A stretch of DNA of 39,712 bases from Desulforegula conservatrix Mb1Pa. GTDB lineage: Bacteria; Desulfobacterota; Desulfobacteria; Desulfobacterales; Desulforegulaceae. The notes under the pieces are model-generated. The model did no database searches and was not told the origin of the DNA. It worked only from the letters and a program-made list of their open reading frames with translations. The position numbers and the translations under genes are program-made. This document shows positions 5,388 through 10,096 of the stretch, one piece after another; positions within the stretch are counted from its first letter, which is position 1, and each line of letters starts with the position of its first letter. Where the stretch lies: contig NZ_AUEY01000034.1 in the NCBI RefSeq assembly GCF_000426225.1, positions 1 through 39,712 on the forward strand, given 5' to 3'.

Positions 5388-5924
5388 TCACTTCAGCTTC
5401 AAAGGAATCCCTGAAACCATCAAATAAGCGGAGTCAGCCCTGGAAGCCATCACCTGATTGCATCTTCCGAGAAGATCCCTGAAATCACGGGATGCTTTGT
5501 TATCAGGAACAATGCCCATGCCTGTCTCGTTTGTTACAAATATGACTGACGCAGAAACGCTTTGGCAGGCTTTAATTATATCCATACAATAATCAGAGAC
5601 TTCTTCCTCGGTAATCCCGATCTTATTATTAAAAGCCCGTTGCATGAGATTACTGACCCAGAGAGTTAGACAGTCGACAAGAATAACGTCTTTGCTCCCT
5701 TGCTCAAGTATGACTCCAGCAATGTCAACTGGCTCATCAACTGTTTTCCAGCCTTCGTCCCTTTCATTTATATGTTTTTCAATTCTTGAATCCATCTCAT
5801 CGTCCACTCCAGATGGACAGGTCGCCAGATAGATTCTCGTTTTTGATATTTCTTCGGCTATTTTCAGGGCATAAGCACTCTTGCCGCTTCTACAGCCACC
5901 TGTGATGAAAACAATCTTACCCAT
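5388..5924 (-). CDS. cobU: Adenosylcobinamide kinase / adenosylcobinamide-phosphate guanylyltransferase
   Basis: The protein has 178 residues (family about 180). It has the P-loop GGCRSGKS (residues 9-16), the LATCP segment expected around the guanylylated His region, VDCLTLWVSNLM, and the C-terminal FVTNETGMGIVPDN ... FRDLLGRCNQ signature. The enzyme phosphorylates adenosylcobinamide and then adds GMP to give adenosylcobinamide-GDP, the CobS substrate, in the cytoplasm. The ATG at 5924 is preceded by AGGGG at about 9 bp; an upstream GTG at 5945 is less likely. The start overlaps the end of cobC by 8 bp (ATGGGTAA contains the cobC stop), which indicates translational coupling. Confidence 0.95.
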   Translation of the reverse strand: MGKIVFITGGCRSGKSAYALKIAEEISKTRIYLATCPSGVDDEMDSRIEKHINERDEGWKTVDEPVDIAGVILEQGSKDVILVDCLTLWVSNLMQRAFNNKIGITEEEVSDYCMDIIKACQSVSASVIFVTNETGMGIVPDNKASRDFRDLLGRCNQVMASRADSAYLMVSGIPLKLK

Positions 5925-6570
5925 TCGTGTTTTCCCCTGTGCCACCTAAATAAACTGAATTCAAATGGGACGTGTCATTTAGAAATGAAAGATATCCGAA
6001 GCCGGCTGAGATGCTAAGGCAGGAAACGGACGCGATATCAGCCGCAAAATGAAAATGCTTTTCAGGAGGGATACCAAGCCACAGACAGATAAGACTTTTG
6101 ATGACTCCTCCGTGGGTACAAACAGCAATTTTATGTTTTTTATCAGAAAGTGCATATTCTTTAATTTTTCCCGCAACTATCTCTATTCTTTCAAAAAAAC
6201 CTTTAATGCACTCTCCGTCAGGAAAACAGAAATCACCTTCCTGCCTGAGCCATTTTTCAGCTTTTTCAGGGTATTTTTCCGAAATTTCCTGCCATGTTTT
6301 CATCTCCCAACCTCCAAAATCGATCTCGACAAGATCTTCATCAAAAACAACCCTGCCGCTGAATACTCTTTCAGCTGTTTCCGTGCATCTTGAAAGAGGG
6401 CTTGAAATACAGGTCCGTATTTCGGACAAATCAGACCGAAAAGACAGAGCATCAGCCTGACTTCTGCCAATTTCAGTTAATGGAAGATCTGATATGCCTG
6501 AAAAGAGTCCCCTTGTCTGGGCAGTTGTTTCTCCATGCCTGATCAAATAAACCGTAATCGTTTTGTCCAA
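5917..6570 (-). CDS. cobC: Alpha-ribazole-5'-phosphate phosphatase (histidine phosphatase family), TTG start
   Basis: The protein has 217 residues. The phosphoglycerate-mutase-like signature LIRHGETT lies at residues 9-16, with the catalytic His about position 12. SSPLSRCTETAE and the second-His segment VCTHGGVIKS complete the active site. In this context the enzyme most likely removes the phosphate of alpha-ribazole phosphate or adenosylcobalamin phosphate in lower-ligand assembly. It is the first gene after the riboswitch and terminator and overlaps cobU. No ATG fits. The TTG at 6570 has a clear GAGAGG five bases upstream and gives the natural start just before KTITVYLIRHGE. A frame start at 6609 would lie inside the terminator stem. 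The histidine phosphatase superfamily is broad, so the specific function rests on the neighbours. Confidence 0.88.
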   Translation of the reverse strand: MDKTITVYLIRHGETTAQTRGLFSGISDLPLTEIGRSQADALSFRSDLSEIRTCISSPLSRCTETAERVFSGRVVFDEDLVEIDFGGWEMKTWQEISEKYPEKAEKWLRQEGDFCFPDGECIKGFFERIEIVAGKIKEYALSDKKHKIAVCTHGGVIKSLICLWLGIPPEKHFHFAADIASVSCLSISAGFGYLSFLNDTSHLNSVYLGGTGENTNG

Positions 6571-6581
6571 AATGGCCTCTC
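6571..6581 (-). promoter_or_regulatory. Ribosome-binding site that fixes the cobC TTG start
   Basis: On the minus strand GAGAGG (6581-6576) is followed by CCATT and then TTG (6570-6568). It lies immediately 3' of the terminator U-tract, so the ribosome site becomes available only on transcripts that read past the hairpin. Confidence 0.65.
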
Positions 6582-6649
6582 GAAAATAAAAAAGCCCCGA
6601 AAAATCCAAAATATTTCAACCGAAATATTTCAATTGGATTCTCCGGGGC
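6582..6649 (-). terminator. Intrinsic terminator in the cob leader (probable riboswitch expression platform)
   Basis: On the minus strand GCCCCGGAGAATCCAATT (from 6649) plus GAAATATTTC pair with GAAATATTTT plus GGATTTTTCGGGGC (ending 6594), followed directly by TTTTTTATTTT. The stem is long, closed by six G-C pairs, and ends a few bases before the cobC ribosome-binding site. Upstream, CGGGGCA (6699-6693) can pair with TGCCCCG (6650-6644), the 5' foot of this stem. That gives a possible antiterminator. Confidence 0.8.
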
Positions 6650-6775
6650 ACCGTATTTTGCCCAGATAACAATAAACAGTCATTTACAAGGCTGCCCCGT
6701 TCCACGAGGGCGCAAGCTCATATATTGAGCATGCCTTTAAAATGGTTATTATATTCCATTTTTAAATCAAAGATG

Positions 6776-6882
6776 AAATCAAGGCGGCAAGGAGGAAGCG
6801 ACGCAAACGTACGTGGTTTGTACGCTCTTGGAGCTGACGACGATGCCAACCCTATCCATTTATTGGGATAGCGCTTTGATTT
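6776..6882. repeat. 107-bp element with inverted ends inside the cob leader
   Basis: It begins AAATCAAGGCGG and ends GCGCTTTGATTT, whose reverse complement is AAATCAAAGCGC, so the ends form an 11-12-bp imperfect terminal inverted repeat. It contains the small hairpins AACGTACGTGGTTTGTACG and CTATCC..GGGATAG. It has no coding capacity and only one copy in this window. It lies exactly between the cobalamin aptamer and the terminator, so it looks like an inserted non-autonomous element; that is inference. Confidence 0.5.
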
Positions 6883-6884
6883 AG

Positions 6885-7010
6885 AATTGGAATAACAGGT
6901 AATCTGGCTTGCGGAAATATGTTGTTCATCTCCGGTCACAGTGGCGGGCCCGCGCCGGATTTTCACCAGCTTCCCCTGTTTCAAAATCATCACAAGCTGT
7001 ACTATCCGAA
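6885..7010 (-). promoter_or_regulatory. Cobalamin riboswitch aptamer
   Basis: Read on the minus strand the region contains the conserved core in order. These are AGGGGAAGCTGGTGAAAATC, then CGGCGCGGGCCCGCCACTGT, then GACCGG, and finally the B12 box GCAAGCCAGATTACCTG (6912-6896). This is the RF00174-type arrangement GGGAA-xx-GGTG-AAATCC / GCCACTGT / AGCCAG-x-ACCTG. GCTTG (about 6998) can pair with CAAGC next to the B12 box. It precedes cobC, so adenosylcobalamin binding should lower expression of the cob operon. Outer boundaries are approximate because the outer stem is not well defined by eye. Confidence 0.88.
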
Positions 7011-7174
7011 AGCAGGCATGTCAATTCAAAGGTTTTTAAAGCCTCCAAGGAGTGTTGCCAAATAACAGAAAAATCATCAACATGGCCACAAACAAAGCCC
7101 GTGCACATATTAAAGACTTATGCTATGTTTTGTGCCTTCTAAACAAACAGCCATAACATATGGAGCTTATACGA

Positions 7175-10096
7175 ATGAAAAAATTGCTTTTATCCGCCAT
7201 ACTCCTTGTTTTTTTATTTACCCAGGGATGCGCCCCAAAAAACACACAAGGCCCCGAAGCAATAAACCAAAAATCAGGCAGTCAGGCATCAGATCCTACA
7301 GGTCGATATTCTTGGCCTAATTCTGTCAGCGACCTCGAACAGGATCCAGCAATGACAACAGGCAAATTTGAAAACGGCCTCAGATATGTGATCATGAAAA
7401 ACAAAAAACCTGAAGGCAGAGTAAGCATTCATCTTAATATTCAGGCAGGATCAGGATATGAAAATCAAGGAGAGGAAGGCATTGCCCATTTTCTTGAGCA
7501 CATGCTCTTCAATGGCACGAAAAGCTATCCGCCTGGTGAACTGGTAAAATATTTCCAGAGCATAGGCATGGATTACGGAAGCGACCTGAATGCAAGAACA
7601 AGCTATGATACAGCCATATACGATATTATGCTTCCTTCGGGCGATGAAAAAAATATGGACAAGGGACTTTCTGTTCTTTCTGAATTTGCTGAAGACGCCC
7701 TGCTTCTGCCTGATGAAGTTGAAAACGAAAAGGGAGTCATTCTTTCAGAAAAAAGAGTAAGAAACAGCGCCGAATACAGAATTGCAATAGCAACCCAGAA
7801 ATTCATTTTCAACGGCCTCAGAATTACGGAAAGAATTCCGATTGGTTCCGAAGAAGTCATAAAGACAGCAAATACAAGGCTTATAAAAGATTTCTATGAT
7901 GCATGGTACAGACCTGACAGAATGATGGTTGTAATTGTTGGCGAAACCGACGTCAAAAAAGCTGAAGATCTCGTAAAAAAGCATTTTTCAGGTATTAAAC
8001 CAAGGGCTGAAAAAAGACAGGAACCCGAACTTGGCACTGTAGATCATAAAGGAACCAAGGCCTTTTATCAGTATGAAAAAGAAGCAGGAGGCACAACTGT
8101 AAGCATAAACACTGTAAGAAGCGTGCCTGCCAAACCTGATACCATTGAAGCAGAAAAAGACGCCATGGTAAAAATGATGGCAATGGGCATTCTTCAGGAA
8201 CGCCTTGATTCCATAGCAAGAAAAAAGAATTCTCCCTTTACAAAGGTATATTCAGGGACAGGTATATCATTAAGGGAAATTGACCATACAGCTGTATACG
8301 CCAGTTGTGAGCAGAAAAACTGGGAAAGCGCCCTATCTTCCATATCCAAGGAAATTGAAACAGCCTTAAAATTCGGGTTTGACAAAGCCGAGTCCGAAAG
8401 GGTCAAAAAAAAGGTACTTTCAGGAATAGACAGAGAAATAGCTACTGCTCCAACCAGAGACAGCAAGGCTCTTGCCAATGAAATCATTGATAGCATGAAT
8501 GACGGCAGGGTTTTCATTTCTCCTGAATACCAGAAAAAAACATTCGCTCCTTTTATTGCCTCTCTGAAAGCCGAAGATTTTGAAAAAGCATTCAAGGAAA
8601 TCTGGAAGGACGATCACAGATTGGTTCTACTCACTGGAAATGCCGATGTATCAGATAAGGCATCCAAAGCTGAAGACCAGATTATAGCTGCATATGAAAA
8701 TGGCAAGTCTCTTGCCACAGAAAAACCATCCGGAAAAACAGACATCAAATTCCCTTATCTGAAAGTTCCTGCAAATCCAGGGAAAATCATAAAAAAAACA
8801 AAAGACAAGGATCTTGACATCACAACTCTGGAATTTGAAAACGGGGTAGTTCTTCATTATAAAAAAACCGCTTTTAAAGCCGATGAAATAATGATGTCCG
8901 TGGCATTCGGGGATGGAAAAATCTCTGAGCCAAAAACAAAACCCGGGCTTGGCTTCATTTCAGAAGCAGTAATGAATCAAAGCGGCACCGCAACATATCT
9001 TGCCGAGGATCTTCAAAAAGTTCTGGCAGGCAAAAATATCAGTTCCTCGTTTCAGACCAGTGGAGAAAGGTTTAATTATCAGTGCTCTTCTTCCAAGGAA
9101 GATCTTACGACACTTTTCGACCTTGTTTACTCCCAGATTTCTGACCCAGGATTCAGGGATGAAACCCTTGAAAGAAAAATCAAGCAACATGAACAGGATT
9201 ATGAAGGGTTTACCAAATCCGCAGATGGATTGATGAGAATCAAGGCTCCATATTTCCTTTCAGGAAATGACCAGAGATTCATGATGCCAGATCCGAACAC
9301 TCTGAAAAAATTTGTGGTCAACGACCTTAAATCGTGGATAGCGCCATCGATTGCAGAATCAGCTATGGAAATAAGCGTTGCCGGTGACTTTGACGAAGCT
9401 GAACTTACAAGACTGGTATCAGCATATTTCGGTTCCATGAAAAAAAAGAAGCCTTTTACTAAAATCCAGCAGGTAAAACTGAACTTCCCTGAAGGAAAAA
9501 AACTGGATCTTTCGGTCAAAAGCCAGGAAAAAAACGCTTCCATCCACATTGTTTGGCCGACTCCTGACATCAAAAGCATAAATGATCTTAAAACCATAAG
9601 AAGACTCAACATTCTTTCTTCTGTACTTGAAAACAGACTCATAAAAGTTGTCAGGGAAAAACTCGGAGAAACCTATTCTCCTGCCGCAATCTTTGACATA
9701 GAGATGAATTATGAAGGTTCTGCCGGAATTCATGTGCTTATAAATTCAAGCACTGAAAAGGCCGATGAAATAAAGAAGGTGGCAATGGATATAGCGGCAG
9801 GGCTAAGCAATTCAGAAATAACGGATGAGGAGTTCGAGCAGGCCATCAATCCAGTACTGACTGCGCTGAAAGAAAAACTCCAGAAAAACATCTACTGGGT
9901 CAGCGGAGTAATGACAGGGTCAGTTCAGAAACCTGAAAAATTCACATGGTCAAAAAACGCCATGCAGGATCATAAATCAATTAAGAAAACTGAAGTGGCT
10001 GCTTTAGCAAAAAAATACCTTGATAACAAAAAAGCGGCTGTCATTACTGTTAAAAGCATTGAAGAGACTGCTTCAGGCGTTAATCAGAAATCATGA
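7175..10096 (+). CDS. M16-family (pitrilysin/PqqL-like) zinc metallopeptidase, lipoprotein
   Basis: The protein has 973 residues with a lipoprotein signal (MKKLLLSAILLVFLFTQGC; lipid Cys about 19). The inverted zinc motif HFLEH (H105, E108, H109) is followed at the right distance by the ENEKGVI segment whose Glu (about 183-185) completes the zinc site. A second, inactive M16 repeat fills the C-terminal half, with RIKAPYFLSGND and the substrate-positioning KVVREKLGETYSPAA segment near the end. The architecture matches PqqL-type two-repeat M16 proteases, which degrade small or unfolded peptides in a clamshell chamber. The lipid anchor places it in the periplasm or outer membrane. The ATG at 7175 is preceded by GGAG at 9 bp; the ATG at 7160 overlaps this ribosome site and is rejected. 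It is divergent from the cob operon and upstream of the yej importer. A joint role in peptide breakdown and uptake is possible but unproved. Confidence 0.9.
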   Translation: MKKLLLSAILLVFLFTQGCAPKNTQGPEAINQKSGSQASDPTGRYSWPNSVSDLEQDPAMTTGKFENGLRYVIMKNKKPEGRVSIHLNIQAGSGYENQGEEGIAHFLEHMLFNGTKSYPPGELVKYFQSIGMDYGSDLNARTSYDTAIYDIMLPSGDEKNMDKGLSVLSEFAEDALLLPDEVENEKGVILSEKRVRNSAEYRIAIATQKFIFNGLRITERIPIGSEEVIKTANTRLIKDFYDAWYRPDRMMVVIVGETDVKKAEDLVKKHFSGIKPRAEKRQEPELGTVDHKGTKAFYQYEKEAGGTTVSINTVRSVPAKPDTIEAEKDAMVKMMAMGILQERLDSIARKKNSPFTKVYSGTGISLREIDHTAVYASCEQKNWESALSSISKEIETALKFGFDKAESERVKKKVLSGIDREIATAPTRDSKALANEIIDSMNDGRVFISPEYQKKTFAPFIASLKAEDFEKAFKEIWKDDHRLVLLTGNADVSDKASKAEDQIIAAYENGKSLATEKPSGKTDIKFPYLKVPANPGKIIKKTKDKDLDITTLEFENGVVLHYKKTAFKADEIMMSVAFGDGKISEPKTKPGLGFISEAVMNQSGTATYLAEDLQKVLAGKNISSSFQTSGERFNYQCSSSKEDLTTLFDLVYSQISDPGFRDETLERKIKQHEQDYEGFTKSADGLMRIKAPYFLSGNDQRFMMPDPNTLKKFVVNDLKSWIAPSIAESAMEISVAGDFDEAELTRLVSAYFGSMKKKKPFTKIQQVKLNFPEGKKLDLSVKSQEKNASIHIVWPTPDIKSINDLKTIRRLNILSSVLENRLIKVVREKLGETYSPAAIFDIEMNYEGSAGIHVLINSSTEKADEIKKVAMDIAAGLSNSEITDEEFEQAINPVLTALKEKLQKNIYWVSGVMTGSVQKPEKFTWSKNAMQDHKSIKKTEVAALAKKYLDNKKAAVITVKSIEETASGVNQKS

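Follow-up and report, generated by a model that had tools for sequence, protein, structure and literature searches.

A MITE-like repeat lies between the receptor of a cobalamin riboswitch and its predicted kissing-loop arm upstream of cobC

Introduction

Ahead of cobC in Desulforegula conservatrix Mb1Pa, a cobalamin aptamer and a transcription terminator stand unusually far apart. This spacing raises the question of what lies between them, how it came to be there, and whether vitamin B12 control of the genes downstream could persist. The original prediction placed an inserted-looking element of 107 bp in the gap and left three options: the element has been tolerated, it supplies part of the switching path, or control has been partly uncoupled. 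Corrinoid riboswitches signal from receptor to expression platform via a tertiary kissing loop, and an arm of 139 nt, predicted to fold on itself, is inserted exactly there.

The window analysed here is the whole of contig C34 (39,712 nucleotides) of the 4.47 Mb host genome, a draft in 178 contigs. The leader heads a minus-strand gene run, cobC-cobU-cobT-cobS-cobO (Pfam matches, in this order: PF00300, PF02283, PF02277, PF02654 and PF02572), which is probably co-transcribed, judging from the gene layout. A divergent M16 peptidase gene lies upstream of the leader. The second cobalamin riboswitch of the host is on contig C53 (113.9 bits). Six of 12 genomes of the order that were searched carry 10-13 cobalamin riboswitches (13 in G079), versus two in the host. 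The features of the leader are listed in Table 1.

Table 1. Features of the cobC leader, in window coordinates
Feature	Position	Strand	Details
Cobalamin riboswitch aptamer, RF00174	6877..7021	-	52.8 bits, E 1.7e-10
L5 kissing-loop tetranucleotide CCCG	6945..6948	-	Inside GCGGGCCCGCC 6953-6943
B12 box GCCAG-ATTA-CCTG	6896..6908	-	J6/3 ATTA 6903-6900; P3 3' strand CCTG 6899-6896
TTA flank, candidate target-site duplication	6893..6895	-	Opposite flank TAT 6753-6751, inexact
MITE-like dispersed repeat, 139 bp	6754..6892	-	Terminal inverted repeats TTCCAATTCTAAATCAAAG / TTCCATTTTTAAATCAAAG
Candidate displaced P1 3' strand GGCAUGCUCAA	6725..6735	-	Pairable with UUGACAUGCC 7024-7015 across the element
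P13 hairpin GCCC-UCGUGGAAC-GGGGC	6694..6711	-	L13 CGUGG 6706-6702; whole hairpin GCCCUCGUGGAACGGGGC
Antiterminator 5' arm CGGGGCA (candidate)	6693..6699	-	Overlaps P13 3' side
Antiterminator 3' arm TGCCCCG (candidate)	6644..6650	-	Overlaps terminator foot
Intrinsic terminator	6588..6649	-	Stem 6649-6594, U-run 6593-6588; -32.2 kcal/mol by folding
cobC (histidine phosphatase superfamily)	5917..6567	-	PF00300; TTG start, picked by eye

Sequence sets and modelling

For the repeat family, the host genome was queried with positions 6760-6890, and copies were measured where both ends of a match could be placed. For comparison of the leader, 91 other cobalamin riboswitches were collected, 82 of which had a parsable B12 box. 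The first 31 were the 30 best-scoring loci listed for the order, together with the second riboswitch of the host; a further 60 were taken from 12 genomes selected for their many riboswitches (four scoring above 104 bits and 56 at or below it, one of these under the gathering score). These relatives are a non-random sample, several coming from one genome, and the J6/3 and L13 counts leave out the nine unparsed ones. Inspection of the first 31 leaders by eye supplied the L13 motif. The leader without the element was modelled by joining the flanks.

Results

The segment is a full-length copy of a dispersed repeat

The host-genome query returned 29 matches at different loci, whole and partial and with the window copy counted. 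The whole query was covered by 14 of them, seven of which (including the window copy) were at least 85% identical; the others were partial or more diverged. Both the aligned copies and the pattern of the ends place the borders: the element starts with TACCA or TTCCA and ends with the reverse complement, and its terminal inverted repeats are a 19-base pattern in facing pairs. The 15 measured copies are 125-142 bp long, and the window copy is a full-length member of the family. The insertion with inverted ends was thus correctly predicted but its size was not: the element spans 139 bp, and the 107 bp are its interior.

Identical 3-bp flanks of the form TNA surround 11 of the 15 measured copies (TAA in six, TTA in four and TCA in one), versus 4.7 matching pairs expected after permutation of the flanks (p 0.00015). 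The window copy is flanked, on the plus strand, by ATA and TAA, an inexact duplication. Of the 29 matches, 26 were free of overlap with frames of at least 90 codons in a crude scan (three overlapped), and the frames beside the copies had all orientations. The repeat is therefore short, dispersed, multi-copy and mostly non-coding, with terminal inverted repeats and, in the family, a target duplication, as is expected of a miniature inverted-repeat transposable element (MITE).

The opposite reading, in which the segment is an ordinary and immobile conserved part of the leader, draws on the inexact flanks of the window copy and on the fact that the compared genomes all belong to one order; in the 57 genomes of that order searched beside the host, cobC matches were at most 36% identical, and no empty site was seen. 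It is very improbable and was effectively refuted by the 29 matches at different loci and the duplications around 11 of 15 copies. In addition, the repeat was not seen by eye in the printed downstream sequence of any of the 31 compared leaders. As the original prediction had supposed, the segment is a repeat of the genome rather than a conserved leader part, and the insertion itself is certain.

The receptor core is present, with an unusual J6/3 and a weak adjacent P1

A search with RF00174 bore out the predicted cobalamin aptamer ahead of cobC. It is the sole cobalamin riboswitch found by the Rfam search in the window, and its score lies above the family gathering score of 31.5 bits at which membership is set. 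The final 16 nt of the match (6892-6877) belong to the element, which leaves CCTG, at position 6896, as the end of the untouched receptor. Of the 31 compared leaders, 22 also have the tetranucleotide CCCG in their L5 region and four lack it, with five unparsed (counted by eye).

The J6/3 joining segment lines the ligand site of cobalamin riboswitches. In the window it reads ATTA, unlike the AAGA kind that is usual in the order: the 82 parsed relatives have AAGA (63), AAAA (10), AATA (3), AAAG (2), GAGA (2), GATA (1) or AAGG (1), so that the second position is A in all 82. Two weak riboswitch matches among the nine unparsed relatives (L211 and L213) apparently have T at this position. The ATTA of the window may reflect decay or a shifted ligand; for one riboswitch, a few binding-site residues are enough to alter the choice of upper ligand (PMC9600662, an excerpt that does not name J6/3).

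The P1-like helix adjoining the receptor is weak, and only four of the 91 relatives have one equally weak or weaker. Because the element begins three bases past P3, most of what the Rfam alignment takes as the P1 3' strand is element sequence. A candidate replacement was found on the far side of the element: the duplex around UUGACAUGCC/GGCAUGCUCAA was calculated at -16.7 kcal/mol, and 20 of 500 shuffles were as good. Its core had a probability of 0.03-0.31 at four transcript lengths with the element and 0.00 without it. These values are no more than suggestive of a P1 that would close across the element, in the order P3, P1, P13, terminator.

The element separates P3 from the P13/L13 arm

For the position of the kissing-loop arm, hairpins with a CG(N)GG or GCGG(A/T) loop were sought within 110 nt of P3. 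Such a hairpin was present in 44 of the 82 parsed relatives, at a median of 25 nt: in 40 it lay 18-35 nt past P3 and in four further away, the other 38 being without the motif. Base-shuffled sequences gave a mean of 2.3 and a maximum of 6 in 20 rounds, versus the 40 observed at 18-35 nt. The motif stood at this distance in 18 of the 31 leaders on which it had been chosen, and also in 22 of the 51 parsed members of the fresh set of 60, where shuffling gave a mean of 1.8 and a maximum of 4 in 50 rounds. A stricter L13 count found 16 of 32 leaders, window included, versus 0.11 in shuffles.

In the window, the element begins 3 nt past P3 and the P13 hairpin lies 189 nt past P3, outside the usual range. 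Removal of the element and one flank brings this distance to 47 nt, which still exceeds 18-35 nt, and the remaining excess is unaccounted for by the element. A similar change was found for the terminator. In 29 of the 31 other leaders, the nearest terminator-like hairpin stands 37-171 nt past the Rfam end; one leader has it at 394 nt and one has none. The strong terminator of the window stands at 285 nt (with a weak call overlapping it at 272 nt), and at 143 nt without the element and one 3-nt flank. The element accordingly explains most of the excess in spacing. It does lie between aptamer and terminator, but the split is better described as one between the receptor, ending in P3, and the kissing-loop arm, P13/L13, and this placement is well supported. 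In the leader of L141, a repeated unit, GTACTGACAC(A/T)GACGACGCATCGG, was observed between the cobalamin aptamer and the terminator.

P13, a candidate antiterminator and the terminator lie beyond the element

L5 (CCCG) and L13 (CGUGG) are complementary, and the predicted pairing needs a bulged U. The terminator, originally described as textbook, was confirmed by folding; a simple terminator pattern scan did not list the 6649-6588 structure.

The candidate antiterminator, pairing CGGGGCA with TGCCCCG, had also been proposed. The complementarity exists, and when the segment past the element was folded with either structure forced, the two states were nearly equal: -34.6 kcal/mol for the antiterminator and -35.0 for P13 in a transcript ending at 6641, and -34.7 versus -36.3 in one ending at 6620. 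As the two structures are nearly isoenergetic, a kissing loop could decide between them. In unconstrained folds, however, the antiterminator took only a small share (probability 0.03-0.09 with the element, at three truncated lengths), and without the element it was close to zero. Complementarity between linker and terminator arm was not significant (p 0.124 in the window, and never below 0.05 in the 30 leaders tested, window included), and the antiterminator claim therefore rests on the overlap with P13 and on published architecture.

Unconstrained folds also gave a different pairing of the terminator foot. In truncated transcripts without the element, the foot paired with the aptamer bases CCGCCACUGU at a probability of 0.92-0.99 (two lengths). 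With the element, the value was 0.65-0.66 at one length, and these bases were not the leading partner at the other. The native P3 was not recovered in such folds (probability 0.01-0.04 in the presence of the element, 0.00 in its absence). Since ligand and kissing loop are ignored and native P3 is missed, unconstrained folds weigh little either way.

The element RNA is predicted to fold on itself

Folded alone (6749-6897), the element reached -43.2 kcal/mol (z -5.1), a value that none of 200 shuffles equalled. Within the whole leader (7025-6590), 15.5 pairs were expected between the first and last 25 nt of the element and only 0.93 between the element and the rest of the leader. When the element was replaced by 40 dinucleotide-shuffled inserts, the means were 0.18 pairs end to end and 34.5 with the leader (range of the latter 11.4-65.8). 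The insert is thus predicted, unlike a random one of the same size, to keep to itself with its ends together. P13 had a probability of 0.88, versus a mean of 0.82 with shuffled inserts, and so receives no special protection.

A TATAAT hexamer occurs on the minus strand at the junction of element and flank (6753-6748). A promoter arising there was considered and found unconvincing, as no acceptable -35 was seen by eye. A promoter scan of 6500-7300 gave a single promoter-like site, which is on the plus strand (shuffles predict 1.5), and nothing on the minus strand at the junction; it says little, because the leader's own promoter was missed as well.

Discussion

A tolerated insertion is the preferred reading

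We regard it as somewhat more probable than not that this is a tolerated, looped-out insertion with control probably kept. By transposition, a MITE-like element would have entered a terminator-type corrinoid riboswitch ahead of the cobC operon, at the 3' side of its P3/P1 junction, so that 139 nt now stand between the ligand receptor (P3-P6 and L5) and the P13/L13 arm. Once transcribed, the element would fold back with its ends held together and protrude as an extra helical arm. This self-pairing is the main argument for tolerance: with the ends held together, receptor and P13 would remain close, and the original path could still be followed. Along that path, a bound corrinoid would promote kissing of L5 and L13 and so hold P13; the antiterminator, which takes up the 3' side of P13 and the terminator foot, would then be prevented, the terminator would form and the operon would be off. 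The sign of this response is taken from the architecture of the Priestia megaterium metE riboswitch. That the RNA folds in this way in the cell, and that the switch still responds, we infer; control persists somewhat more probably than it has been lost.

Several findings count against tolerance: the ATTA at J6/3, the weak adjacent P1, the unrecovered P3, the lack of special protection of P13, the inexact duplication, the residual distance of 47 nt and the non-significant complementarity of linker and terminator arm. The drop in pairing between the terminator foot and the aptamer bases when the element is present would also mean a weakened path.

Some of these points bear on the main alternative, which is less probable: the insertion would have uncoupled the aptamer, now in decay, from the cobC operon, and expression would be set by basal readthrough of the strong terminator or by another promoter. 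The unusual J6/3 and the weak P1 fit such decay, as do the reduced pairing of the foot with the aptamer and the low score (52.8 bits versus 113.9 for the host's other cobalamin riboswitch), and the TATAAT at the junction could supply a promoter. On the other side, the rest of the receptor core is present together with L5, L13, P13, both antiterminator arms and the terminator; a short P6 accessory region and a displaced P1 would also give a low Rfam score; and the promoter scan found nothing on the minus strand at the junction, although this counts for little given that it overlooked the leader's own promoter. Exaptation, the second option of the original prediction, fared worst of the three and is improbable. 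In that case the tip of the element would complete P1 (GGAUAGU/GUUAUUC), or its stem would compete with P1 in a ligand-dependent manner. The Rfam alignment does build P1 partly from element bases, and UUAUUCC is needed both by P1 and by the basal stem of the element. The GGAUAGU/GUUAUUC helix, however, had a probability of 0.00 at all four lengths of element-bearing transcript that were folded, 88 of 500 shuffles equalled the best duplex formed by the 5' flank with a stretch of the element (-6.0), and the total pairing of element and leader was the 0.93 pairs given above. This option is the least supported because the element scarcely pairs with the leader, and P13, the antiterminator and the terminator lie outside it.

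Beyond simple tolerance, the element might have become a working structural arm of a composite B12 sensor, with P1 (UUGACAUGCC/GGCAUGCUCAA) closed across the transposon hairpin and kissing-loop signalling past it; we think this unlikely. RNase III could likewise cut the long double-stranded arm, as it is reported to do with Correia transcripts (PMC10969869, excerpt), which would part the sensor from its platform and leave the decision irreversible.

Should the switch still work, its linker tolerates large independent helices, a property of use to riboswitch engineers and a hint at how leaders come through transposition intact. Should it be dead, the locus is an example of riboswitch loss caused by a MITE.

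Comparison with known systems

The closest model is the P. megaterium metE riboswitch, in which mutational tests support complementarity of the P13 3' side to the 5' arm of the terminator (PMC10653944, excerpt). The window shares with it, as far as the excerpt goes, the receptor core, L5 CCCG, L13 CG(U)GG, the complementarity of the P13 3' side to the terminator, and a terminator placed before a B12 gene; it differs in the 139-bp repeat between P3 and P13, the displaced P1 candidate, the ATTA at J6/3 and the short P6 accessory region. The same excerpt calls the way in which ligand state yields alternative platform structures not known, and expects further mechanisms.

A small mobile repeat co-transcribed within a riboswitch leader, and apparently compatible with regulation, has a parallel in the pneumococcal trp leader, where a BOX element lies between two T-box riboswitches and regulation was inferred from RNA-seq to persist (PMC3049150, excerpt). 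The BOX element stands between two riboswitches, whereas the element described here stands inside one, between the receptor and the kissing-loop arm. Like Correia-type and other bacterial MITEs, as these are described in the available part of a review (PMC10969869), the family has a length of about 100-200 bp, terminal inverted repeats, a mostly intergenic location, a short duplication and a strong RNA hairpin. The likeness is one of features, and the family differs in its 3-bp TNA duplication and in that no autonomous partner was found. That part of the review also considers the formation of riboswitches or terminators by MITEs conceivable, and terminators of insertion sequences (IS) have been described as a source of mobile attenuators (PMC2965389, excerpt). 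In the open-access literature, among the matches listed and by title and abstract opening, no MITE within a single riboswitch was found.

The repeat family beyond the cobC leader

At least 14 of 291 genomes of the order, host included, contain the repeat family, and its named carriers are Desulfobacterales, Geobacteraceae, Syntrophaceae and deltaproteobacterial MAGs (eight stretches, from the genomes of five records). The element was unmatched in the plasmid collection. For an autonomous parent, ten regions of the draft genome (178 contigs) were inspected, and no second facing end was present at transposon distance.

Individual loci gave minor observations. At L093 (G110:C7:166957-167280), in a different genome of the order, two matches to the repeat, one nearly full and one partial, are separated by about 150 bp. 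After half a repeat copy near the right end of C54:24000-27735 (L150, also L029), a frame, MKKNNIYVGLDVHKNSIDVAL..., opens at the end of the contig. It may be an IS110-type transposase, which would fit the insertion of an IS into the repeat; a 67-residue piece of it was unmatched in Pfam. Where a TAA duplication is followed by T, the repeat end makes TGGTATAAT, which resembles an extended -10 (for example at C5:125332), while the TATAAT of the window is without the TGn; it is possible that the family carries outward promoters. Finally, a 100-bp element with the same terminal repeats and an interior that differs by eye was observed at C17:11050-11149 (L149), and is perhaps a second MITE type sharing these ends.
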